Virus record (IMG/VR): IMGVR_UViG_3300022668_000041
Coordinates: 1 to 21,083 of that record
Length of the DNA stretch: 21,083 nucleotides
Source: a virus
Reading direction: 5' to 3' (one strand)
The translations under genes were made by a program, and so were the position numbers. The notes under the pieces are model-generated. The model saw nothing but the letters and a program-made list of their open reading frames with translations, was not told where the DNA came from and did no database searches. Of this stretch, positions 4,229 to 21,083 are shown piece after piece (within the stretch, counting starts at the first letter, position 1; each line of letters begins with the position of its first letter).

Positions 4229-4785
4229 GTTATTATAGCCTCCTCTGGAAAACCTGTTGGAAGGTAACTTATTGTCATTGTTTTACCACCTACCGAACTG
4301 GTAATTGTTTCTGGCTGGTCATACGAATTCCATGTTATTGCGACAGATTCTACGATTGCGGCTGCCAGTTTATATGTTACACCGGTAAGAAATCCGCCAG
4401 TAAATGTGAATTCAATTTCATCATATTCACCGGTATCCAGAATTAGATTACTACCGCCAATACCCTCGATAAATGCCGAAGACAATGATAACTGGACGCC
4501 ACCTCTTCCATTGTCTTTTACAACAATTTGATTCTTTTTACCAGAAACGTATTCGGTAAAATCCCTGACGGACCGCAGCTTCCCTTTTCTGTTTGTATCA
4601 ACCAACCTGGACCGGTCTAGGTCAAGCAGATTGGCATTCTGTAGGACCGGGCTCTGCTCTGGGTTGGAGAGTGTTTCGATGAATTGAAATAATGACCTGA
4701 GATTATCGTTAAGTTTGGTAATATTGAACTTTGGATCTGCTTTTGGATCTATGTCCTGCGGTCTTTTTGGTCCGTTCAGTAACAT
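4225..4785 (-). CDS. Virion-region protein, 186 aa, unknown function
   Basis: The start lies inside the end of the upstream tail gene (10-base overlap) and the stop overlaps the next start (ATGA), so it is a true operon member. Residues 1-60 are polar and helical (FNITKLNDNLRSLFQFIETL), resembling the short N-terminal segments by which phage fibre or adaptor proteins trimerise or attach. Residues about 75-186 are beta-rich (YDEIEFTFTGGFLTGVTYKL, then KTMTISYLPTGFPEEA). No signal peptide or membrane span is seen. It might connect the tail hub to fibres. I do not recognise a named family. Confidence 0.72.
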   Translation of the reverse strand: MLLNGPKRPQDIDPKADPKFNITKLNDNLRSLFQFIETLSNPEQSPVLQNANLLDLDRSRLVDTNRKGKLRSVRDFTEYVSGKKNQIVVKDNGRGGVQLSLSSAFIEGIGGSNLILDTGEYDEIEFTFTGGFLTGVTYKLAAAIVESVAITWNSYDQPETITSSVGGKTMTISYLPTGFPEEAIIT

Positions 4786-7196
4786 AAAAATGCGTTTCCA
4801 TTGTTATTGATTACATTGTCCCTGTAGTATGCGAATGCTCCGTCGCTTATTACCTCGTCGTAAATTCTGATATCAAACAGGCTTTTTGAGTTCCCAGTTA
4901 GATATTGGATATTGCCACTTAAAATGTTAACAGAACTTAAAAGCTGAGACGATATCCTGGACCCGTTCTCGGAAAAGTATATTGTCCCGCCACTCCGGGA
5001 TATTTTGATAAAAACCCATTCGTCGCCATCCCAGGTCATAGCTTGAGAATAAATGCCACTAGCGTCTTCATATTCAACGAAGTATTCGTCTCCGACTACT
5101 GTGATTCTGATTATCCCATCGTCTGCGAATCTTACCATCTCTGTGGTGGATAGAATGTTATCGACCGCAAATTGAACCGTAAAGTCACCGTTTATGACGC
5201 TGGAGTTTAGGTATTCAAGGTTGCTAGTGTTTGAGAAAAGCATTGCCGAGTCTTCTTCCGAGTCCGGTCCAGTAATACTTGAAAATATCGATCCGCTGTC
5301 AGGTTTGCTCCCAGATGCTCGATCCAAAGTAAGGTCATACCCGCGAGAAAGCCAGTGTATCGGCTCGCACATTTCAAGCTGATAATCTCCCTCTTCCATG
5401 AACCGTTCGCTCGGGGCTCCTCGCTGATCTTTGAGTTCATACGCGGTTTTTGCTCCGACCATTTTTATTGCTGATTCAGATCCATTTATCTCTATTTGGA
5501 CCCGGTTATCTTCAACATCTTTGTCGAACACGATATCACCTTTATATGGGATATTTTCGGTTTTAGCTGTTTCAGATATTTCTCCATTTTTGTAGGCTTT
5601 CACGGTTATTTCTTGTCCACTCAGGTATCCGTTTTCATCATAACCAGATGCACCCTGATTAGACTCCTCTTCTGGGCGTAGGAAAATATGTGATTCGATA
5701 TGGCGGACGATATTTTCTTCGCTGCTTCCGATATGCTCTTTTAGTCTTACAATCCACGGAATGCTTTCGCCAGGAGCGTATTCGGCACCAACTTTATCTT
5801 TGAATAGTTTCGTTAGGCCCGACCCGGCCGGGCCGCTCCTTGATGCTAGATGATAAAACAACCCAGTTACAGCGTCCATAACTATTACCATTGGTTGATC
5901 TTTATCGGTAAACACCCTCACTCCACTTACTTTTGCCTCCGGCCATATCCACCCTGGGCCGCCATATTCAGACCAGTTTTTCCCCTGTTTCGGGTTCGGG
6001 GAAAATCTGTAGCATTTGTTTGTCTCAAAAACCCTAAGCTCTCCGCCATAAGAGTACAGAAGCGCTCTTATGCCTCCGTTAAATTCGCTGAGAAATCCAG
6101 ATATATACGTCAAATGATCGGTAACATCCGAATATATAGACTCAATTGTTTCGCTACCGGATGGTGGTGGTGCTGGCGGTGTTGAAGGATATTCGAATGC
6201 TCCAATCGTGTTTCCACCAAGTCCGGCGTCAGGATCGCTCCATGGTCTGGCATTTCCGCCTAAGCCTTCTGTGTTGTCTGGGATTGTTACTGTTTGCCCA
6301 CCGGTTGGCATTTGACCGGTTATTAGTGGCACAAAAAAATCAGGGTCAGATGGTGTAATTGACGAAAATTCGTTAGCCCCGACAACGTTTATAAGATTAC
6401 CACTCTGTACAACAGCATCGTCGGCCGTATCATCAGAAGATGCATTATTGTATGATTCTGCGTCGGCCGCAAACCTAAAACACTCTCTGACACTTCCGGT
6501 ATTTATTGACGCGTTATTTCTGAACACAGTGGGAGATAGAACAAGATTACTGATACCGTAACCTTTACCTTCTATAGAATTATTTTCAATGGTTTGTGAA
6601 TCAACACCGAAATTTCCTGTCGATCCCCCAGCAATAGACATTCCGTATCCAGATGCACTGTCCGCTGTGTTTTTTACAATATTATTCCATATTTCCATTT
6701 TTCTGGATGCAAACGTAGATCCTCCGCTCCCAGAACAGGCGATCCCGGTCCCGTCAAGGCCCTTCATGTCTACAACATTGTTTTTTACCATACTTTCTAG
6801 TATGTATGTTGCAAGAACCCTGAACCCGACTGCTGGAGCGGATATCCCGCTGACTGCGGTTAATAATTCCAGCCAAAAATTTGTTACTTCTATTCTTGCG
6901 AAATGGAGCCCGAATAGTGTGCTCCATAAACCAGTGTTTATTTGCAGTTTCCATGCATCAGCTTCGACACCTTTGTGTACCTTATCGCTGGTGTATGTAA
7001 GTTTCGCTCCATAAGAAATGGGAGTCACACCGAGTATTCCGGTGGTTTCCACAATATCGCTTATTTGTATTAAAGTATGGTCACCGTTTGTCTGAAAATA
7101 CAAATTGTCAGCAACATAGGCGTTCCACATGGCAATTTTAGCATCTCCGAACGTGGGATAATCTCCGCCGGACCCGATATACCATGTTACAGCCAT
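4776..7196 (-). CDS. Chimeric tail protein: N-terminal beta-helix, central tail-hub-like part, C-terminal LamG-like domain, 806 aa
   Basis: The start is the ATG at 7196, which overlaps the nozzle stop as TAATG and has GGAGG seven bases upstream. An in-frame ATG ten codons earlier has no such site. Numbering from 7196, residues 1-30 (TWYIGSGGDYPTFGDAKIA) are a typical lead-in to a beta-helix. About 40-310 show Asn/Gly-rich helix turns such as NNIVKNTADSASGYGMSI and NNSIEGKGYGISN. About 337-347 is a proline linker (TPPAPPPSG). About 350-625 resemble tail-hub or propeller sequence (RALLYSYGGELRVFETNKCY, then GPGWIWPEAKVSGVRVF). About 635-780 look like a LamG/concanavalin sugar-binding fold (NGDFTVQFAVDN, then WVFIKISRSGGTIYFSENG, then LFDIRIYDEVISD). 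It is likely a tail-tip or spike component that contacts surface glycan. Confidence 0.8.
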   Translation of the reverse strand: MAVTWYIGSGGDYPTFGDAKIAMWNAYVADNLYFQTNGDHTLIQISDIVETTGILGVTPISYGAKLTYTSDKVHKGVEADAWKLQINTGLWSTLFGLHFARIEVTNFWLELLTAVSGISAPAVGFRVLATYILESMVKNNVVDMKGLDGTGIACSGSGGSTFASRKMEIWNNIVKNTADSASGYGMSIAGGSTGNFGVDSQTIENNSIEGKGYGISNLVLSPTVFRNNASINTGSVRECFRFAADAESYNNASSDDTADDAVVQSGNLINVVGANEFSSITPSDPDFFVPLITGQMPTGGQTVTIPDNTEGLGGNARPWSDPDAGLGGNTIGAFEYPSTPPAPPPSGSETIESIYSDVTDHLTYISGFLSEFNGGIRALLYSYGGELRVFETNKCYRFSPNPKQGKNWSEYGGPGWIWPEAKVSGVRVFTDKDQPMVIVMDAVTGLFYHLASRSGPAGSGLTKLFKDKVGAEYAPGESIPWIVRLKEHIGSSEENIVRHIESHIFLRPEEESNQGASGYDENGYLSGQEITVKAYKNGEISETAKTENIPYKGDIVFDKDVEDNRVQIEINGSESAIKMVGAKTAYELKDQRGAPSERFMEEGDYQLEMCEPIHWLSRGYDLTLDRASGSKPDSGSIFSSITGPDSEEDSAMLFSNTSNLEYLNSSVINGDFTVQFAVDNILSTTEMVRFADDGIIRITVVGDEYFVEYEDASGIYSQAMTWDGDEWVFIKISRSGGTIYFSENGSRISSQLLSSVNILSGNIQYLTGNSKSLFDIRIYDEVISDGAFAYYRDNVINNNGNAFLCY

Positions 7197-9727
7197 TACA
7201 CATCCTCCAGTTGATCGGATCCCCATAAAATATAACCTATATCTGGGTCATAAGCCGATGCTAGAGACATTTGAAGCTTAGATATCATTTTGGAAACAAA
7301 ACCTTTACCCTCCGAGTCAACAGTCAGGTCTTGAGAATACCCGTTACCGTCAAACATTCTTACTGCTGGCTCCGAGGATACAACCATTTGTCTCCCGCCG
7401 CCGATATCCATTACGCCGCCAATATCTTTTATTCCGACATCAGGGTCAACCAGGGATACGCTGGATAACGAAGAAACCACCTCTCCCACTTCAGGAAGAC
7501 GTATCTCGCTGTATATGTTTGTCGCAATTTTCCTGGTAGAGTTTGCGCAATACAAAATAAGCTTATCTTGAAATTCAGCCATGTGCCTTATGGCGTCTTT
7601 TACTGACGCTCTTTGGTATTGTTGATTATGATGTCCACCGAGATATTCCAAATCCGCCGGCAACTGGCTGTAATCTATTTCTTTTCCGTTTATCGGTGAA
7701 CAAAACATCCATCCTGGAGTGATAGCGCCAAGCCCGTAATTCCTAACACCATCCCAGAATCTAGATCTTAGGGGAAATTTTTTTGCCCTGTATAACACCT
7801 CATCGTCAGTTATAATGTCATTGAAATTTCTGGAATCAGGATCAATGGTTCCCGCTGTTTCCGCTTTCTCGTCCCGGTCGTAAGTTTCGACTTTATCTCC
7901 CGATATGTATCTTTTTACAATACTGAAAGTCCCATCGGACCAAAAAAACATTTTATTCACGTCGCTCTGCTGAAATTTGTCGCCGCTGATTCTGATAATA
8001 TCGTTGCTTTGTTGAACAGCTTTGATTACCCGTCCATTTCCAATCGCAGCACCCTTGGCCCCAAAGCTTGGCCCGGTATAAACGGTTCCAGTATATTCCG
8101 CCCTGGCCTCGGTGTTTGATAATACAGCCCGAATAACAACTTTATTTCCGTTCTGGAATTTCAATTCAGATCCGACATCATGTAGACTGAATACTCCCTC
8201 TGTGGCGTTTATTTGACCCCCAGCGTCTATCGAACATACAAAAGCCTTCGCTACCGGAATGTCAGCATTCCAGGCAAACTGATCTGGGTTCGTTGCTACA
8301 TCACTTGTGTTTTGTGTTGTATAAATTGAGCAGTGGGTGTATTGATTGTATCCTGTTGGAATATGGAGTGAGTCCTCTGTATCAGACCCCACAACATGGG
8401 AGGATGGTTTTTGTAGATATTGGCCAGTTCCAGCTTCCATTGCAAGGTAGGCTGCGTTTGAGATGTCGGTTCCGTCTGATCCGGTTGTGGTGTAACTTGC
8501 CTCATTTCCTGCGCTTGTCCCTTCGTTTATGACGAACCTGGTGTTATCTTCCTCATACCTGCATTCGGCTTCCGGGTTTTCGGGGAAAACCGCCCTTAAT
8601 CTGGTTTGGATTGTTGCGGCGATGTCATCCCAGGTTTCGTCGTCTGTGAAATCGCATTCGACATTTCTGGTTCCGATGGTGAATGCTATGTTAAACTGTC
8701 CATCAGCAACAGCAAGCCATTCATCGAGTCTGGCTGTCGGGGTGGCACCGGCCACCTCTTGGTATACATCACCCGTTGTGCTTTTTGGTGCAGATTGCCA
8801 AAAAATTTCTTTGTAGTCATTATAATCGTTGTTTTCATCAACTTTGTTTCCTCCGGTTTCTTTTACGATTTTTCCACCATTTCCCCTGTCCAGCCCTCCT
8901 GTTTCGCTGGTTATCCTGGAGAGGGTGTAAATATATCTTCGGCCTATGGTTCTGATTAGCGTTTCGTCAACAGACCCTATTTTGTTCTCTGGAACCGGGT
9001 CGTTGCATTTGTACATCGCAATAATACTCTCGGTTGGATCTATTTTATAAACCCCGTTATAATTAAAAAGGTAGACGCTACCTTTTGACTCGTCGAATGT
9101 TGATTTTGCGTTGTACGGGATATCTGATAAACACGGTATTTCATTAAATTGGCTCATTGTATAATCGGTCCAATAAGCAGTTTCTCCAATCAGAAAAAAG
9201 CATTTTCTTGATTCATTATGCCAATGCGGTCTGGCGTTCATTGGTCTCTGGAGTTTACCTGGGTCATCCTCGGTTGTCGCAGCATGCGCGGCATCTGACC
9301 TTGTGATAACCCTATCTGCGTCCACAAATTCGGTAATCAGGTCTCTTACTCCATCCGGCCAGAGGAACCAGCTAAGAATATCGTCTTCTGTGAAGTCCTC
9401 TCCGGCTGTTTTTGTTATCGTGCTATCGGTTTTTGATGCTACATAATTATCCCTACCGTTTATGGATGGGAGGGGTGTAATCGGCCGGCCGCCACTTGAG
9501 ATTTCAGCGTCCTGTTCATCTGGACTTGGTATGCCAGTGCCCCATATTCTGGTTCCAGAACGGGCTTCTATATATTCTCCGAAAAGAATTGCATTAAACA
9601 GGTAGGCCACAGAGTTGTTTGGAAGTTCGCTGGCCGGGATGTCGCCGTAAAACGCATCAAACCTGCGTTGCTCCCAATCTATAATTGGGGCTCTGTTGCG
9701 TTTTTTGTAATCCTTTAGTTTACGCAT
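7196..9727 (-). CDS. Large tail nozzle/hub protein with an internal DUF3383-like insertion, 843 aa
   Basis: It follows the connector gene after two bases. The N-terminus (KKRNRAPIIDWEQRRFDAFYG then VAYLFNAILFGEYIEARSGTR) and the C-terminal half fit podoviral nozzle or DNA-stabilisation proteins of the T7 gp12/P22 gp10 type. In the C-terminal half, blocks such as AEFQDKLILYCANSTRKI and GGRQMVVSSEPAVRMFDG look like propeller blades. Residues about 325-440 are different. From LDEWLAVADGQFNIAFTIG through a helix (DDIAATIQTRLRAVF) to FVINEGTSAGNEASYTT they match the pattern of the DUF3383 domain known from sheath-like phage proteins. The protein would form the tube through which DNA leaves the head. 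Family assignment is by pattern and position; HHpred or structure prediction would settle it. Confidence 0.75.
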   Translation of the reverse strand: MRKLKDYKKRNRAPIIDWEQRRFDAFYGDIPASELPNNSVAYLFNAILFGEYIEARSGTRIWGTGIPSPDEQDAEISSGGRPITPLPSINGRDNYVASKTDSTITKTAGEDFTEDDILSWFLWPDGVRDLITEFVDADRVITRSDAAHAATTEDDPGKLQRPMNARPHWHNESRKCFFLIGETAYWTDYTMSQFNEIPCLSDIPYNAKSTFDESKGSVYLFNYNGVYKIDPTESIIAMYKCNDPVPENKIGSVDETLIRTIGRRYIYTLSRITSETGGLDRGNGGKIVKETGGNKVDENNDYNDYKEIFWQSAPKSTTGDVYQEVAGATPTARLDEWLAVADGQFNIAFTIGTRNVECDFTDDETWDDIAATIQTRLRAVFPENPEAECRYEEDNTRFVINEGTSAGNEASYTTTGSDGTDISNAAYLAMEAGTGQYLQKPSSHVVGSDTEDSLHIPTGYNQYTHCSIYTTQNTSDVATNPDQFAWNADIPVAKAFVCSIDAGGQINATEGVFSLHDVGSELKFQNGNKVVIRAVLSNTEARAEYTGTVYTGPSFGAKGAAIGNGRVIKAVQQSNDIIRISGDKFQQSDVNKMFFWSDGTFSIVKRYISGDKVETYDRDEKAETAGTIDPDSRNFNDIITDDEVLYRAKKFPLRSRFWDGVRNYGLGAITPGWMFCSPINGKEIDYSQLPADLEYLGGHHNQQYQRASVKDAIRHMAEFQDKLILYCANSTRKIATNIYSEIRLPEVGEVVSSLSSVSLVDPDVGIKDIGGVMDIGGGRQMVVSSEPAVRMFDGNGYSQDLTVDSEGKGFVSKMISKLQMSLASAYDPDIGYILWGSDQLEDV
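7204..7208 (-). promoter_or_regulatory. Ribosome binding site that sets the start of the 806-aa tail protein
   Basis: GGAGG lies inside the last codons of the nozzle gene, seven bases before the ATG at 7196. It favours that start over the ATG at 7226. Confidence 0.7.
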
Positions 9728-13911: not shown

Positions 13912-15990
13912 TTATGGGCTTGCTGGCCCTGGTTGTGGAATTGTTGATTGCTCTGCTTCTGGAATTGGTTCGGCATCAGGCTGGATTGGCATTTCTGATT
14001 GTGGAACCTCTGATACCGGTAATTCTTCCTGTCCGCCACCGCCACCTTTTAGTGACTCCGCCTCCATTAGAGATTGGAGTTCGACCAGTGCCGACTGGGC
14101 GCTTGTGGCATTAAGATTATCTATTTCTGTCTCGACTCGGCTGAGGTCGAGTTTGTTTTGGAGTTTCTTGATTAAGTCAAATTCAACTTTGTCGCTCTCC
14201 GTCATTTCCATGGTGTCCAGAATCTTAGCGAACAAATATGAGACATAGATGCTGTTCGGGTTGTTTTGGACTGCAAAATTGTAAAGATCTTGGTAAAAGG
14301 CTCTGTCTTGAAGTCTTTTTGTTGGGTTGTTTTTTGATTCTGTTATAACAACCGTTGACCGGGGAAGATCCTGTGGCCTGTTTCTGACCCACATTTCACC
14401 ATTTTTGGTAACCATTTCATTCAGGATAACGAAATTTTTCCCATCGCTGGTGGACATTTCCCTTTCCCAACTGTTATAGCCAGGATCGAGTTGCCATTGA
14501 ACCATATAGGCCTCGGCCATGTCTTTTTCCCATTTTTTGACCGAATTGTTGATAGTGATTAGCCCGAGCTGGGCAACCTGAAGTTTTCTATCAAACAGGA
14601 TGCCAGATTCGTTGGCTGACTCGGACATCGCCTCCATTGCAGCGGGAACCTTTGAAACCCGGTCCACAATGTCGTACATGCGATTAATCTGGTCGATTAT
14701 GGTGCTGGGATATTGATTCATATTCAGGTAATGAATCGGGTTATCCTTTAATGCATCTCCATCGACAACCCCAACGTATCTCGGGTCATTGGCTCCGGCT
14801 TTAAATTTCCTCAGCTCTTCTGGAGTTCTGAATAAATCTCTGGATACCAGTTTTCCGCCACCGGTTGCCGTCCCGATTAATTCTGTGGTTTTCATTTCCC
14901 GCTTGTTGATTGTCATCTGGATATCAGCGATATCATCAACAACACCCTTATCTACACCACCACTTCTGTTTGAGGTAAGGTGAAAATAAGGTAGTCTTTT
15001 GCATTGAATACTGGCGGTGCCTTCGGTTAAAACACCTTTAGGCATAAGAGTGGGGCAAATTGCCACAACTTTATGAACAGAATCCCGGTATGGAAGGTCG
15101 GCCATAGTGTTAGGGTCGACTTTGTTCTGGATCATGAACTGTTCTAATTTTACTCTGTCTTTTGTAATAGGGAATACAACCCATCGAGTCGAGTTTAACA
15201 CCTGACCCTGCAGCCTGGTGGTTTGTATGTCCTCCATGTAATGGTATTCAACTACACGGTGCATGTGGCCTTTTTGGGATCTTTGGACTGATTGTGTAAA
15301 ATCGGCGTGTATGCTGATATCCCGGTATTCCCCGCCCATGCGCTGGGTCATTCTTATCTGGTTATCAATAATCTCATTGTAAACGTTGTATTTTTGGGCA
15401 ATGTCGCCGGCAGAAAGATGGAAAACCTCCCATAATTTCTTACAATCGTTGTCATCCTTGGAAATCCAGTGTGGATCTCGGATAACAAATCCAGGCATGC
15501 ACCGAACGAAACAGATATTGCCCATCGAATTATCGAACTTGAATGTCTTTGTCATTTTGATTTCACCGGAGTGAATCATGCCATCAAGGATTACATCGTT
15601 CTTGTGGGATTGGTAATCACAAAGTTCTTTGTCTGCGGCAAAGGAGTCTCGCTCGGCTTCATGGACGGAGTTTCTTGGGCCGGCAATAGGTTTTAAATCG
15701 ACATCAAAACCATTGGCAGCGATTGACCCAGCAAGTGTGTCAATTTTTGGGCCAACAATGTTGTAGGTATCTGCGTGGCGTTGTTCTCTCTTAAGCTGGT
15801 CGAGTTCTGCCCCAGTGTATTGACCACCTTCAATGCCAAAATACATTTTATGGTTATCAAGCATACGCTGGAATGAACGGTCCTGTGCCATTCTGGCGTT
15901 GTCAAATTCGGAATTTACGAGAATGAATTTCTCAAAATCGGATGACATTCTTTCTCCGAAACTGCGTTTTTGCGGAGCAAATTCAATCAT
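13912..15990 (-). CDS. Portal protein, P22-like, 692 aa
   Basis: The portal is the dodecameric ring through which DNA is packaged and ejected. The N-terminal region (DRSFQRMLDNHKMYFGIEG then YNIVGPKIDTLAGSIAANG) and the following helix-rich clip and wing region match large podoviral portals of the P22 type, and the size is right. Near residues 360-480 a long helical stem follows the turn VDKGVVDDIADIQMTINKRE. The last 60 residues are a Gly/Pro/Glu-rich tail. The ATG at 15990 overlaps the stop of the 86-aa gene (ATGA). A second in-frame ATG at 15948 (MSSDFEKF) has a better site, GGAG five bases before it. The true protein may therefore be 678 aa. Confidence 0.85.
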   Translation of the reverse strand: MIEFAPQKRSFGERMSSDFEKFILVNSEFDNARMAQDRSFQRMLDNHKMYFGIEGGQYTGAELDQLKREQRHADTYNIVGPKIDTLAGSIAANGFDVDLKPIAGPRNSVHEAERDSFAADKELCDYQSHKNDVILDGMIHSGEIKMTKTFKFDNSMGNICFVRCMPGFVIRDPHWISKDDNDCKKLWEVFHLSAGDIAQKYNVYNEIIDNQIRMTQRMGGEYRDISIHADFTQSVQRSQKGHMHRVVEYHYMEDIQTTRLQGQVLNSTRWVVFPITKDRVKLEQFMIQNKVDPNTMADLPYRDSVHKVVAICPTLMPKGVLTEGTASIQCKRLPYFHLTSNRSGGVDKGVVDDIADIQMTINKREMKTTELIGTATGGGKLVSRDLFRTPEELRKFKAGANDPRYVGVVDGDALKDNPIHYLNMNQYPSTIIDQINRMYDIVDRVSKVPAAMEAMSESANESGILFDRKLQVAQLGLITINNSVKKWEKDMAEAYMVQWQLDPGYNSWEREMSTSDGKNFVILNEMVTKNGEMWVRNRPQDLPRSTVVITESKNNPTKRLQDRAFYQDLYNFAVQNNPNSIYVSYLFAKILDTMEMTESDKVEFDLIKKLQNKLDLSRVETEIDNLNATSAQSALVELQSLMEAESLKGGGGGQEELPVSEVPQSEMPIQPDAEPIPEAEQSTIPQPGPASP

Positions 15991-16247
15991 TTGTCTCGAC
16001 TTTTTTTGTTAAAACCTCCGACCGATACCGTGGGAACCGGAACAGAATCGATAAATTCCCATTTTGCTTTTTCTATCTTGACGCCGCAACCAGCAAAGGA
16101 TACTGGTTTTCCAGCCTTTATGAACTGAACGTTAATCCACCCATGGGTTTTACAATTGACGTAGATTTTATCACCAGACATGAAAAGGAGTGTCTTTTTG
16201 TGGTCTCTATGCTCTGGCCCTGGGCACAGTACGGCTTGTTTTTTCAT
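15987..16247 (-). CDS. Small Cys/His protein next to the portal, 86 aa
   Basis: This is the first gene of the virion operon, ending in an ATGA overlap with the portal. The N-terminal half contains C8, H13, C32 and H35 (CPGPEH then CKTHGW), which fits a single zinc-binding site, and has the pattern of a small ribbon fold with an aromatic strand between the knuckles. The C-terminal half is basic and ends in a flexible tail. The ATG at 16247 has no Shine-Dalgarno sequence, and the predicted promoter ends only ten bases upstream, so the message would be nearly leaderless. Function is unknown. Possible roles are regulation of virion genes or a nucleic-acid-binding packaging accessory. Confidence 0.72.
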   Translation of the reverse strand: MKKQAVLCPGPEHRDHKKTLLFMSGDKIYVNCKTHGWINVQFIKAGKPVSFAGCGVKIEKAKWEFIDSVPVPTVSVGGFNKKSRDK

Positions 16248-17094: not shown

Positions 17095-17481
17095 CTATGG
17101 GTCTGGATATTTTGATGCCGAGAAATCGTACGCCCTTTCGAAATAAGCAGTCTTGAAGCCAAGATTCTCGATATGCTTTAAAACTTTGTGGTTTCCACCA
17201 CAGTAAACGTCGAATTCGTATTTCCCAAGCTCCTCTTTTGTTATTTCTCCGAAATGGATTTTGTTTGTAATCAGTTGAATTTTTGGGAAAAAACTATGGA
17301 GTATTTCAAAAAGAATGACAAAACAATAGCTTATTGGGTATCTGCGTTTATCGCTTTCGAGTATTACCACCTTCAGGGTGTCAACTCCTGGGCTGTGGAA
17401 AATACGCAGAATATTGCACAGGTGCCCAAGGTGTGGCGGGTCGTATCGTCCAGATGTTAGGGCAATCAAGTTATTCTCCAT
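17095..17481 (-). CDS. HxGH-type nucleotidyltransferase (cytidylyltransferase-like), 128 aa
   Basis: Residues 10-22 read SGRYDPPHLGHLC, the nucleotide-binding HxGH signature (H17-L-G-H20) of the nucleotidylyltransferase superfamily, followed by the usual helix. The length is that of small cytidylyltransferases of the TagD type, which activate glycerol-phosphate or choline-phosphate-like alcohols as CDP derivatives. The GRYDPPHLGH version also resembles NMN or pantetheine-phosphate adenylyltransferases, so the nucleotide and substrate are open. The C-terminal ISSTxxR-type motif is replaced by YDFSASKYPDP and the protein stops soon after. It overlaps the LicD gene by 16 bases, which supports a shared pathway: one enzyme makes an activated phospho-alcohol and the other transfers it. 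Confidence 0.8.
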   Translation of the reverse strand: MENNLIALTSGRYDPPHLGHLCNILRIFHSPGVDTLKVVILESDKRRYPISYCFVILFEILHSFFPKIQLITNKIHFGEITKEELGKYEFDVYCGGNHKVLKHIENLGFKTAYFERAYDFSASKYPDP

Positions 17482-18146
17482 GTTTTAGGTTTATCCCAGT
17501 CTTTGACGATGCAAACAACTTTTTTCCGGGACGCTCCGCCTTTTTTTGGTACACCCCAGCCGCCGTACCACTCGTCGAGAAGTGATCCGGCTTTTGTGGG
17601 TATTGGGGCGCGAAAACCTTCGAAATCAATCTCGGTGAAATCCTCGTAATATTTTGCCGGTGTACCCTTCAGGATAGCTTGGTGTTTGTCGTCAAAATTA
17701 TACCTGTCCTTATTGAACTTTCCAAGCCACCTTTTGCCTTTTGTGTGCCACATCCAGCCCTGGTGCTCAAAACAAAACCACTGACAGCATCTAGCTCTCT
17801 GTTTCGGCTCCACCAATGAAAACCATAGTATCTCTCCATCCGGTTTGCGTGATATCCGCTCTTGCGGTGTATGGGGTGGTCCCCATTTAAATAACCCTGC
17901 CTTTTTGCATTCTGAGAAATATAACTCTTTTTCCTCTGGCTTCAAACCCAAAAAACACAAATCTGAATCCTTATCCCAAGGTATTATACCCCTTCTGTAT
18001 TTGGGCGGCCTGATTGTTGTGTCCAAAGAAGGCCTAACAGCACCCAATGCAGATCCGAACCCAAGGCACATTTTATCATAGACTCCGGATGTTTTTGCGC
18101 ACTCGAATATTGCTTTCAGAAGTTTAATTCCAGAATCTCTTTTCAA
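17466..18146 (-). CDS. LicD-family phosphotransferase, 226 aa
   Basis: LicD proteins are nucleotidyltransferase-fold enzymes that move a phospho-alcohol (choline, ribitol or glycerol phosphate) from a CDP carrier to a sugar. The key features are visible: GSALGAVR at 31-38, followed by IIPWDKDSDL at 54-63 with the metal-binding Asp58, Asp60 and Asp62. A C-terminal DEWYGGWGVPKK at 191-202 matches the Tyr-Gly-x-W/P block near the end of this family. The start is TTG at 18146, overlapping the stop of the HNH gene by one codon's bases, with GAGG seven bases upstream. Cys and Trp are frequent around residues 108-140. The adjacent nucleotidyltransferase and glycosyltransferase genes suggest decoration of a glycan; the acceptor is unknown. 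Confidence 0.85.
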   Translation of the reverse strand: MKRDSGIKLLKAIFECAKTSGVYDKMCLGFGSALGAVRPSLDTTIRPPKYRRGIIPWDKDSDLCFLGLKPEEKELYFSECKKAGLFKWGPPHTPQERISRKPDGEILWFSLVEPKQRARCCQWFCFEHQGWMWHTKGKRWLGKFNKDRYNFDDKHQAILKGTPAKYYEDFTEIDFEGFRAPIPTKAGSLLDEWYGGWGVPKKGGASRKKVVCIVKDWDKPKTWRIT

Positions 18147-18640
18147 AACAAAACCTCGTTAGTTTTTGCAAATTTTCCAAAATATTTTTCAGCAGCCTTG
18201 TTATATGCTAATGCGGCTTCGGTTTTGTTAATAAAATAACCCAGATGTATTTGACTTCCGCCCACAGCTATATATGCCCTCCATTTTTTATCGCGCCTGA
18301 ACCAGCTGACACCCTTAAAACCTGATTTATTATTTTTTGATATCTTTGCATTATACGAATTTTGTCTTGGTGTACACACCCTTAGGTTTGATTTTCTGTT
18401 ATCCAACCCATTACCATTGATATGGTCAACAAACATACCCTCAATGTGGGTGTTATGGTGTTTTGTAATCTGAATGTGCATTTTTAGATGCGGAGTTTTT
18501 GTTTTAGCTCTCCTACCGTAAACGGCATAACACGTTCCATCTGGTTTTCTGTTTGTGTTCCATTTTAATTTGCTTAGAAAATCATAATCCTCGTCATCTA
18601 CGAGCGCAAACTTACCCTGTGTTAATGGTATCCTTTTCAT
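18143..18640 (-). CDS. HNH endonuclease with C-terminal AP2 domain, 165 aa
   Basis: Freestanding HNH-AP2 proteins are phage homing endonucleases that cut a DNA site and spread their own gene. Residues about 52-97 carry the HNH core (VDHINGNGLDNRKSNLRV, with Asp72-His73, Asn75 and Asn81) following an upstream His-rich strand. Residues about 105-155 are an AP2 DNA-binding domain (SGFKGVSWFRRDKKWRAYIA then LGYFINKTEAALAYNKAA). The N-terminal region (MKRIPLTQGKFALVDDED) is also typical. The gene overlaps both neighbours by four bases (ATGA at its start, TTGA at its end), so its insertion leaves no spacer. It has no clear ribosome site of its own. It is complete and has no visible frameshift. Confidence 0.92.
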   Translation of the reverse strand: MKRIPLTQGKFALVDDEDYDFLSKLKWNTNRKPDGTCYAVYGRRAKTKTPHLKMHIQITKHHNTHIEGMFVDHINGNGLDNRKSNLRVCTPRQNSYNAKISKNNKSGFKGVSWFRRDKKWRAYIAVGGSQIHLGYFINKTEAALAYNKAAEKYFGKFAKTNEVLF

Positions 18641-19560
18641 ATTTTCACATGAGATAATATGTAGTTGGCTGCTATTTCCACCAAAAATGGCACATTATCA
18701 AGCCTAACCCCATATCTTAAGGCATCTGTATATTCGGACCATAGTTTACCTAAAGGTAATTTCCAAGCCCCGAACCTGTTTCCATTATGAAAATTAACCT
18801 CATCACATACGAGAAGCGGTAAACCACAGGCCAGCATTTCGTAGAGTGCGCGGGGTGCTGAATCGATGCTTTTGTAGGGTACAACCCCCACCCTACACTT
18901 AGAAATCCACTCTGGCATCTCACCTCTCTGCACTCGCAAGCGGGTAACATTTTTGGGCGGCTTGTATTTTGATTTGATTCCGAGGTGGAGGATTTTTAAA
19001 TCGCTCGGCGCCGTCTTGTAAACCCATGGTATTCTTTTAATGTCAGCCTGACCACCATTGGCGATGTAACAAACATCAAACTCTTTTTTTACATCCCTGG
19101 GATAGAATTGAGGTGGAACCGGTTTAGTCCAAAGGATATGTTTTATCCCAGGGAACTTCTTTTTCGCCCTACGTAGCTGTTTATCCGAGTCCTGTAGGGT
19201 AAGTTGATAATCTGAAAAGCCTTTTATTGGCAGGTGTCTTTTACCTGCTCCGTAGTAAATCTTGAAAGCATTGGGATATCTTCGCAAAAGGCCATGATAC
19301 TCAGGAAAACCACCCCGAGCGAAAATGATATCAGGATCAAAAGCCGGAGCAAAGTCAGAAATTTTTCTGGTCCAGATAACGTGTTTTTTTTCTCCATATG
19401 ATACAACCCTTTCTCCGCCCCAATAAAGAACCTGAACCTCATCCCCCATGGCCATAGCAAGATGCGTCCAAACATCACTCTCTTTATCAAGAGAGTTGAA
19501 CATTATCTCTCTTGGGTCTCGGTCTTGAGGAACTTGGCCTCTTAGGAATAAAACTTTCAA
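18637..19560 (-). CDS. GT-B glycosyltransferase (GT4-like), 307 aa
   Basis: It probably transfers a sugar from a nucleotide donor to a growing glycan or other acceptor. The N-terminal half (MKVLFLRGQVPQ, then FDPDIIFARGG) and the C-terminal half with ECGVVPY-like strand KCRVGVVPYK and helix SAPRALYEMLACGLPLLV (234-251) are the two Rossmann-like halves of GT-B enzymes. The Glu at 241 fits the donor-binding ExxxxxG position. There is no signal peptide or membrane segment, so it acts in the cytoplasm. The start is TTG at 19560, chosen because AAGGAG lies six bases upstream. The length is at the lower end for GT4, and the C-terminus ends abruptly at the HNH junction. Confidence 0.83.
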   Translation of the reverse strand: MKVLFLRGQVPQDRDPREIMFNSLDKESDVWTHLAMAMGDEVQVLYWGGERVVSYGEKKHVIWTRKISDFAPAFDPDIIFARGGFPEYHGLLRRYPNAFKIYYGAGKRHLPIKGFSDYQLTLQDSDKQLRRAKKKFPGIKHILWTKPVPPQFYPRDVKKEFDVCYIANGGQADIKRIPWVYKTAPSDLKILHLGIKSKYKPPKNVTRLRVQRGEMPEWISKCRVGVVPYKSIDSAPRALYEMLACGLPLLVCDEVNFHNGNRFGAWKLPLGKLWSEYTDALRYGVRLDNVPFLVEIAANYILSHVKI

Positions 19561-19999: not shown

Positions 20000-20548
20000 T
20001 TATCCTCCTGGTTTGATTACTCTCCACATGCTTCTTGCTGGATTTTCGATATTGAATTCAGTTCCAGCAAAAAACTCATTTACAGCTTCCGTGACCCCGT
20101 ATTTTTTTCGCCCGTAATCATGGCCACAAATTATACCACCTGGACAAACTTTAGGATACCACGCCTTTATATCAGCCAAACAACCTTCTCGAGTGTGATC
20201 CCCATCGACAAAAACCATATCAAGACTTCCAGCAAGGAATCTTTTTGAGGCATTCACAGAGCTGTCTTGGATTGCTTTGTATTTACCTCTAAACGGAGAT
20301 AGTTTTTTTGTGAACTCCTCAAAGATATTTCGGCCTTCAGCCATATCTTCGAGTTCTTTTTCTACCGCTCCGGGTGAATAATCCCATGGGTCGATGAAGA
20401 AGAATTTTATCGGATTACCAGTTCTTTTTGCTGTAGAAAGCATGACGTATGCTGATCCACCTTTCCAGGATCCAACCTCAACAACAGATGAATTTCTGCC
20501 AAGACGCTTGATGCATTTTTTTAAAAATGACTTCTCTTCACCGTTCAC
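20000..20548 (-). CDS. Class I SAM-dependent methyltransferase (Methyltransf_24-like), 182 aa
   Basis: The Rossmann methyltransferase core is clear: motif I VEVGSWKGGSA (23-33) binds SAM, FFFIDPW (49-55) carries the acidic end of strand 2, and DMVFVDGDHTREGCLADI (110-127) followed by PGGIICGHDYG (136-146) is the typical block of the CmcI/Methyltransf_24 group. This group often methylates sugars or small metabolites. The start is GTG at 20548, with AAGGAG seven bases upstream and an 11-base overlap with the preceding glycosyltransferase. The likely role is O-methylation of a sugar made by its neighbours; DNA or protein methylation is less likely because no matching target-recognition motif is seen. 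Confidence 0.85.
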   Translation of the reverse strand: MNGEEKSFLKKCIKRLGRNSSVVEVGSWKGGSAYVMLSTAKRTGNPIKFFFIDPWDYSPGAVEKELEDMAEGRNIFEEFTKKLSPFRGKYKAIQDSSVNASKRFLAGSLDMVFVDGDHTREGCLADIKAWYPKVCPGGIICGHDYGRKKYGVTEAVNEFFAGTEFNIENPARSMWRVIKPGG

Positions 20549-21083
20549 CGATAATCTCCTTGCCGAGCTTTAAGTATTTTCTGAATTCAAGTTGGTATTT
20601 TATATCTGACCTTCGGCTTGTTTTTGCATGCCAAATTTTGCTGTCATATTTAAATATACTATCGTTGTACGATTCTGGCAAGGCGATGCGCTTTAAACCT
20701 GATTTTTTTATTTGTTTCAGGCAAAGAAGCTGCGGAAGCATCCAGTCGTCGGTTCCCTGTAATTCTTTGAATATTTCGTCACAGTATTCTTTTGTTTCCC
20801 GGGAGGCACCGAGAACATAAACCCCACCCTGAAACTGGTGTTTTGGTTTTTTACCGTGCTTGTGCCAGTATTTTATGTTGTGCGGATTTACTCCATTGAA
20901 CAAATCGTAAATAGGTTTCCTGATCAGACAATCCGGGTCTATCCAGGCGACATGGCTTAGTTCACGGGTAACAGTGGTTTTGGATATATAGCTCGACAAC
21001 CAGCTATGCCTTAGATAATTTTTTTGAAATGTGGATCCTTCGTGTCTCCAAAAATCCACTTCCCCGACACATTTGAATTTAGT
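20538..21083 (-). CDS. GT-A-like glycosyltransferase, C-terminal part (start lies outside window)
   Basis: The frame is open to the right edge: FKCVGEVDFWRHEGSTFQKN continues into the first in-window GTG, so the true start is beyond 21083. About 182 residues are visible. HVAWIDPDCLIRKPIYDLF contains a D-x-D motif of the kind that binds the metal and nucleotide sugar in GT-A enzymes. FQGGVYVLGASRETKEYCDE and DDWMLPQLLC match the acceptor-side segment that follows in GT8-like and related families. It ends 11 bases inside the methyltransferase gene. Together they suggest sugar addition followed by methylation. The exact GT family is not certain. Confidence 0.75.
   Translation of the reverse strand, partial: TKFKCVGEVDFWRHEGSTFQKNYLRHSWLSSYISKTTVTRELSHVAWIDPDCLIRKPIYDLFNGVNPHNIKYWHKHGKKPKHQFQGGVYVLGASRETKEYCDEIFKELQGTDDWMLPQLLCLKQIKKSGLKRIALPESYNDSIFKYDSKIWHAKTSRRSDIKYQLEFRKYLKLGKEIIGER
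20556..20561 (-). promoter_or_regulatory. Ribosome binding site supporting the GTG start of the methyltransferase
   Basis: AAGGAG, seven bases before GTG at 20548, inside the end of the upstream glycosyltransferase gene. Confidence 0.72.

Follow-up and report, generated by a model that had tools for sequence, protein, structure and literature searches.

The window analysed here is the whole of IMG/VR record IMGVR_UViG_3300022668_000041 (21,083 bases; the record ends at 21083), and its features are collected in Table 1 together with those of related contigs. On the minus strand it carries a gene for a LicD-like transferase (type A) and, downstream of it, a gene for a small HxGH nucleotidyltransferase-like protein (NT). 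A sequence-only reading of this DNA had described a 16-base overlap of the two genes, which was confirmed, and an HLGH signature in the small protein, which was found within SGRYDPPHLGH; the LicD-like reading frame carries IIPWDKDSDL. A GAGG stands 7 nt ahead of the TTG start of the latter, and this start shares bases with the stop of the HNH reading frame before it, an HNH/AP2 gene that is a bystander and stands outside the pair. Relatives of each reading frame are present in independent viral contigs at about 31-46% amino-acid identity, and HxGH and D-x-D-x-D are retained in every relative copy covering these motifs, so neither is a chance reading frame. As to start sites elsewhere, the LicD reading frame of contig L008 has no ATG, GTG or TTG where one would be expected, and an ATA follows a plausible ribosome-binding site there (L008:5345). 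An AP2-repeat-looking reading frame similar to the HNH/AP2 gene of the window adjoins NT in contig L021 (9072-9740, minus strand).

Table 1. Features of the window and of related viral contigs (positions without a contig name refer to the window).
Feature	Position	Strand	Remarks
P22-like portal protein	13912..15990	-	PF16510 E=2.9e-26
Small protein upstream of portal	15987..16247	-	86 aa; similar-looking proteins at this position in relatives, by eye
HxGH nucleotidyltransferase-like protein (NT)	17095..17481	-	128 aa, ATG start
NT catalytic motif SGRYDPPHLGH (HLGH)	17422..17454	-	coordinates derived from translation
LicD end / NT start overlap	17466..17481	-	16 bases
LicD-like transferase (type A)	17466..18146	-	226 aa, TTG start
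LicD metal-binding motif D58-K-D60-S-D62	17961..17975	-	coordinates derived from translation
HNH/AP2 homing-type endonuclease	18143..18640	-	HNH_3 E=1.1e-9; AP2 E=4e-5; PHROG HNH E=9e-46
Probable GT4-type glycosyltransferase	18637..19560	-	Glyco_trans_1_4 E=0.005, below cut-off
Methyltransferase (Methyltransf_24/TylF-like)	20000..20548	-	PF13578 E=1.4e-19
Cassette ORF open at window edge	20538..21083	-	glycosyltransferase-like by eye; no meaningful Pfam match
Type B LicD-like gene	L006:1622-2227		near terminase, D-x-D
Type B LicD-like gene	G001 (L027:14333-14950)	-	near terminase, D-x-D
Type B LicD-like gene	G004 (L036:16817-17440)		near terminase, D-x-D
NeuB	G002, L031:17973-18839		3e-57
NeuA-type CMP-sugar synthetase	G002, L032:876-1625		9e-22

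Scans of 2.9 million viral contigs showed the adjacent pair in 10 further viral contigs, as the sequence-only reading had proposed to check: the NT query retrieved eight contigs and the LicD query two more (L018 and L021), which together with the window makes 11. NT and LicD are neighbours in 11/11 contigs, and three gene orders occur. LicD precedes NT in eight of them (window, L002/L007, L004, L005, L006, L008, L009 and L018), with an overlapping layout akin to that of the window in L002, L004, L005, L006, L008 and L009, while the overlap in L018 hinges on the start codon chosen. NT precedes LicD, directly abutting, in L010 and L011, which are near-identical contigs from the same sample, and in L021 the two converge. 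In L002, L004 and L005 the contig ends within LicD, of which L005 retains just the final residues; each of six long contigs tested holds a single NT. Since the gene order changes, and since L018 and L021, retrieved by LicD alone, both carry a divergent NT next door, the adjacency goes beyond one inherited synteny block, and functional coupling of NT and LicD is well supported. Outside these contigs, the LicD scan of the GTDB genome collection yielded zero confirmed cellular homologues at the sensitivity used, and 50,697 phage records held no close relative of NT, LicD or the portal protein, the matches there being only weak ones to faecal or wastewater scaffolds that lack annotation. Neither NT nor LicD received a useful assignment from PHROGs. 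One GTDB match to the NT alignment was discarded, being a single 16-residue HxGH patch in a protein of a Rubrobacter MAG that is HldE-like by eye.

The pair usually lies inside or beside a cassette of glycosyltransferase and methyltransferase genes, and across the contigs these cassettes contain GT2, GT4-like, methyltransferase, sulfotransferase-like and radical SAM genes; gene content of this kind, here borne by phages, is of the surface-glycan type. Portal, scaffold-like and major-capsid-like genes are found downstream of the pair in the window, L002, L005, L006, L008 and L009, the portal being assigned by PF16510 in the window and the structural genes of the other contigs by likeness. Lying next to capsid genes, as most copies do, agrees with expression while virions are assembled, and the one copy beside an integrase, where the pair ends a long cassette between terminase and integrase (G002, contig L018), fits lysogenic conversion. 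The two-step path that had been suggested for the pair gains from this glycan-modification setting (glycosyltransferases, methyltransferases, sulfotransferase-like genes and NeuA/NeuB) and from the coupling implied by adjacency in 11/11 contigs. Further observations were made in the same genomes. The NeuB and NeuA-type genes of G002 may constitute a phage-borne route of nonulosonic-acid activation within the same cassette as the pair. Phage contig G001 holds a sulfotransferase-like gene (L027:12711-13274, minus strand, PF03567 E=4.7e-7) and a second one, recognised by eye, within the structural region (L026:6462-7016, minus strand). Large structural-region reading frames are found at L026:10850-15238 and in the window at 4776-7226 (minus strand).

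The earlier assignment of the two proteins to the nucleotidyltransferases and to LicD holds at superfamily level by Pfam family matches and Foldseek. As a single sequence, the NT of the window matches PF01467 at E=0.0066, below the gathering score, whereas the same model matches 11/11 members of the NT family, the best at 1e-7. Residues H17, G19 and H20 are invariant across the 11 copies, and the HxGH motif lies in the N-terminal Rossmann-like half. An AlphaFold (AF2) model built from the family alignment (mean pLDDT 91.6) retrieved PPAT and NMNAT enzymes with Foldseek (E from 3e-6, TM about 0.7). Membership of NT in the HxGH nucleotidyltransferase superfamily is thereby supported, with the fold as predicted by the model. 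No cytidylyltransferase was among the PDB top 50 Foldseek matches of this model, though PPAT entries dominate the PDB. Another candidate, Anti-DarT factor A (AdfA), gave a weak Pfam match to the NT of the window (E=0.0079), but it matched 1/11 family members only and was rejected, as was a 345-aa HxGH protein of Vibrio phage 1.081.O with a Nudix-like C-terminal part, a distant match outside the NT family.

The nucleotide that NT would use is a matter of graded judgement. In a profile search of PDB chains, the archaeal NMNAT MJ0541 gave a near full-length match to NT (3.8e-4), and in profile-profile comparisons PPAT reached a probability of 94 over the N-terminal half only (87 columns), TagD 66 over 115 columns spanning the whole protein, and HldE 46. 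Adenylyltransferase models rank first among NCBIfam families for the NT of the window, well under cut-off: it scores about 13 bits where the curated PPAT and NMNAT cut-offs are 103-127 bits. The glycerol-3-phosphate cytidylyltransferase model TIGR01518 gave no match to it at E<=0.001, although the same model matches in the control genomes described below, and is absent among the 25 of 29 NCBIfam families listed for it; NT falls in no named enzyme family among those tested. By sequence comparison and modelled fold, NT ranks nearest to the ATP-using adenylyltransferases PPAT and NMNAT. The CDP-alcohol product suggested earlier finds partial support, in that the C-terminal motif aligns with TagD: the invariant R116 of NT pairs with the Arg of TagD RTxGISTT, the remainder (A-Y-D-F-S-A-S) being no more than similar. 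Because the tested relatives of the LicD partner, FKRP (PMC6965139) and mf1 (PMC11982090), take CDP-linked donors, our judgement tips towards CTP, with ATP as a less probable though substantial candidate.

The LicD-like protein of the window is marginally over the cut-off of Pfam PF04991 (E=1.2e-4, 22.7 vs 22.6 bits), a model that matches 8/10 LicD family members at E<=1, the best at 1.6e-7. The phage LicD profile aligned with 12 cellular LicDs at a probability of 98.5 across the C-terminal 44 columns and with a 27-residue stretch of FKRP at E=0.013. In the AF2 model from the family alignment (mean pLDDT 88.9), the 13 best PDB matches with Foldseek were all FKRP (E from 3.5e-6, TM 0.47). These comparisons support a placement of type A in the LicD family at superfamily level, with a predicted fold. 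As regards the active site, the activity of FKRP requires aspartates 360, 362, 364 and 416 (PMC6965139). The metal triad claimed earlier (WDKDSD) stands insofar as G-x-x-LGA-x-R ... D-x-D-x-D (FKRP Asp360/362/364) is present, with D-x-D-x-D in 9/9 copies covering the motif; the equivalent of FKRP Asp416, on the other hand, is apparently a Cys. For the placement of this fourth Asp we used what we take to be the FKRP strand sequence bearing Asp416. The corresponding strand of cellular LicDs, IDIFPLD, lines up best with phage CC[NQK]W[FI], and by alignment and predicted strands the Asp416 position appears to fall on the invariant Cys121 (or N/Q/K122) of type A, in the middle part of the protein where the automatic LicD profile alignment is uncertain. 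The only later invariant acid in type A is D191, near the C-terminus. Because the Asp416 equivalent appears to be missing from type A, classical two-metal catalysis is doubtful in this protein; residues W108, F109, S110, C121, W123, H134 and K136 are invariant around the presumed site.

A second LicD-like gene (type B) lies upstream in three relatives, L006, G001 and G004, and the aligned copies (L006 and G001) also retain the later Asp that type A is without. Moreover, the type A proteins of L010, L011, L018 and L021 have an extra N-terminal domain that, by eye, resembles a degenerate type B. Two LicDs thus seem to be the usual arrangement in these phages, and the window ends short of where a type B gene would be visible.

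On balance, we lean towards the reading that the pair is a conserved two-step activation and transfer module acting on a glycan. NT would couple a small phosphorylated compound, most likely a polyol or amino-alcohol phosphate, to a nucleotide, and its product would be the LicD donor. The LicD-like protein would then attach the compound activated by NT, as a phosphodiester substituent, to a glycan, which is probably built by the neighbouring phage glycosyltransferases and may belong either to the host surface or to the virion; the pair probably decorates a surface sugar. Since no kinase or dehydrogenase making the alcohol phosphate could be recognised, this compound would have to come from the host. 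A variant in which NT makes an ADP-linked donor that is transferred by the altered-site LicD, perhaps together with the second LicD-like protein, would be unlike described LicD chemistry, and we consider it distinctly unlikely.

Three other explanations bear on this reading. Type A might be an altered or dead subunit that works with type B, either as the separate gene or as the fused degenerate N-terminal domain, while NT supplies a nucleotide-linked compound. The Cys121 in place of Asp416 would agree with this, as would the type B copies of L006, G001 and G004 that retain D-x-D (those of L006 and G001 also the third Asp) and the type B-like N-terminal domains seen by eye in four type A proteins; but D58, D60 and D62 are strictly kept and the residues of the site region are invariant, as would be expected of an active site under selection and not of one in decay, so that we hold this explanation to be unlikely, though the one among the three that deserves most weight. 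That PPAT and NMNAT are the best profile and fold neighbours of NT could also mean that it serves NAD/CoA salvage as an NMN or pantetheine-phosphate adenylyltransferase and sits in the cassette by chance, and phage NMNAT-like proteins do exist, an example being the distant match in Vibrio phage 1.081.O. The score of about 13 bits against salvage-enzyme cut-offs of 103-127, the LicD adjacency persisting through three gene orders, which salvage would not need, and the failure to recognise any further NAD or CoA gene near NT all make this improbable. The sequence-only reading had itself pointed to a salvage-enzyme match with no link to LicD as what would speak against it; NT does lie nearest to PPAT and NMNAT, but its link to LicD is real.

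Finally, the strong variation of cassette content between contigs and the occurrence of HxGH + LicD neighbourhoods in cells might indicate that the phages acquired a host surface-polysaccharide gene block which has no selected role in them. The pair, however, is constant while the rest of the cassette varies, it is strongly diverged from any cellular copy recovered (at the sensitivity used, the GTDB genome collection gave no confirmed relative apart from one 16-residue HxGH patch), and it stays open in all copies, which renders such passive carriage very improbable. The two-step module on a glycan remains the reading that we prefer.

LicD enzymes attach zwitterionic or polyol phosphates to glycans, and failure of their human relatives FKRP and fukutin leads to muscular dystrophy. 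To our knowledge, only a small number of LicDs have been assayed in vitro. If the preferred reading is true, the small phage pair would offer a compact system in which to test LicD chemistry, and phages of a lineage distinct from Flandersviridae would be shown to add phosphodiesters to surface or virion glycans. Moreover, with an Asp apparently missing from a conserved LicD clade, a question about the LicD/FKRP metal site becomes directly testable.

The closest phage parallel is the adjacent ispD + licD found in some Flandersviridae (Benler et al. 2021, PMC8008677), whose authors proposed that LicD might alter the surface against superinfection. In both systems, a phage gene for nucleotide activation adjoins one for a LicD family transferase. 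The Flandersviridae partner, however, belongs to the IspD family, whereas NT belongs to the HxGH superfamily; furthermore, the Flandersviridae insert occurs in some members only and in the replication module of phages that infect Bacteroides/Parabacteroides, whereas the pair described here is present in every contig found, mostly beside late genes. Thus the earlier statement that no phage system of this exact form is described stands for HxGH + LicD, of which no report was found in the open-access literature searched (coverage incomplete), but activation and LicD genes had already been paired in phages as ispD + licD. A phage-borne glycerol-3-phosphate cytidylyltransferase is reportedly mentioned as an auxiliary metabolic gene in a cyanophage paper; it shares the HxGH superfamily with NT but is of a different enzyme family.

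With respect to the enzymes individually, PPAT (CoaD) and archaeal NMN adenylyltransferase (NadM) are the best fold and profile neighbours of NT, but the main NT clade has S-A-S-K as its last motif where these have S-G-T-x-I-R, and NT, unlike them, is tied to LicD and lies far below the cut-offs of their families. Human FKRP and fukutin, which are ribitol-phosphate transferases, share G-x-x-LGA-x-R...D-x-D-x-D with the phage LicD, which is about 20% identical to FKRP (TM 0.47), is without the stem domain and has no obvious acidic counterpart of Asp416. In cells, a control set of 100 genomes, all belonging to the same phylum as a Rubrobacter MAG, contained LicD in 7/100, TIGR01518 (at E<=1e-20) in 5/100 and both in 3/100, and in these three genomes the TIGR01518-like cytidylyltransferase lies 1.2-1.9 kb from LicD. 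Like the phage pair, this cellular TagD + LicD arrangement places an HxGH nucleotidyltransferase close to LicD. It differs in that the cellular proteins match TIGR01518 (in 2/3 genomes over the curated cut-off, in G015 below it), which the phage NT does not, in that one cytidylyltransferase apparently carries a fused glycerol-3-phosphate dehydrogenase-like domain and two copies carry one that is Gfo/Idh-like (both by eye), and in that the cellular LicDs are canonical, unlike phage type A. As HxGH + LicD is an existing cellular logic, it supports the functional reading of the phage pair. Taken together, phage ispD + licD and cellular HxGH + LicD are precedents for the HxGH-type activation and transfer pair described here, which probably acts on a glycan.
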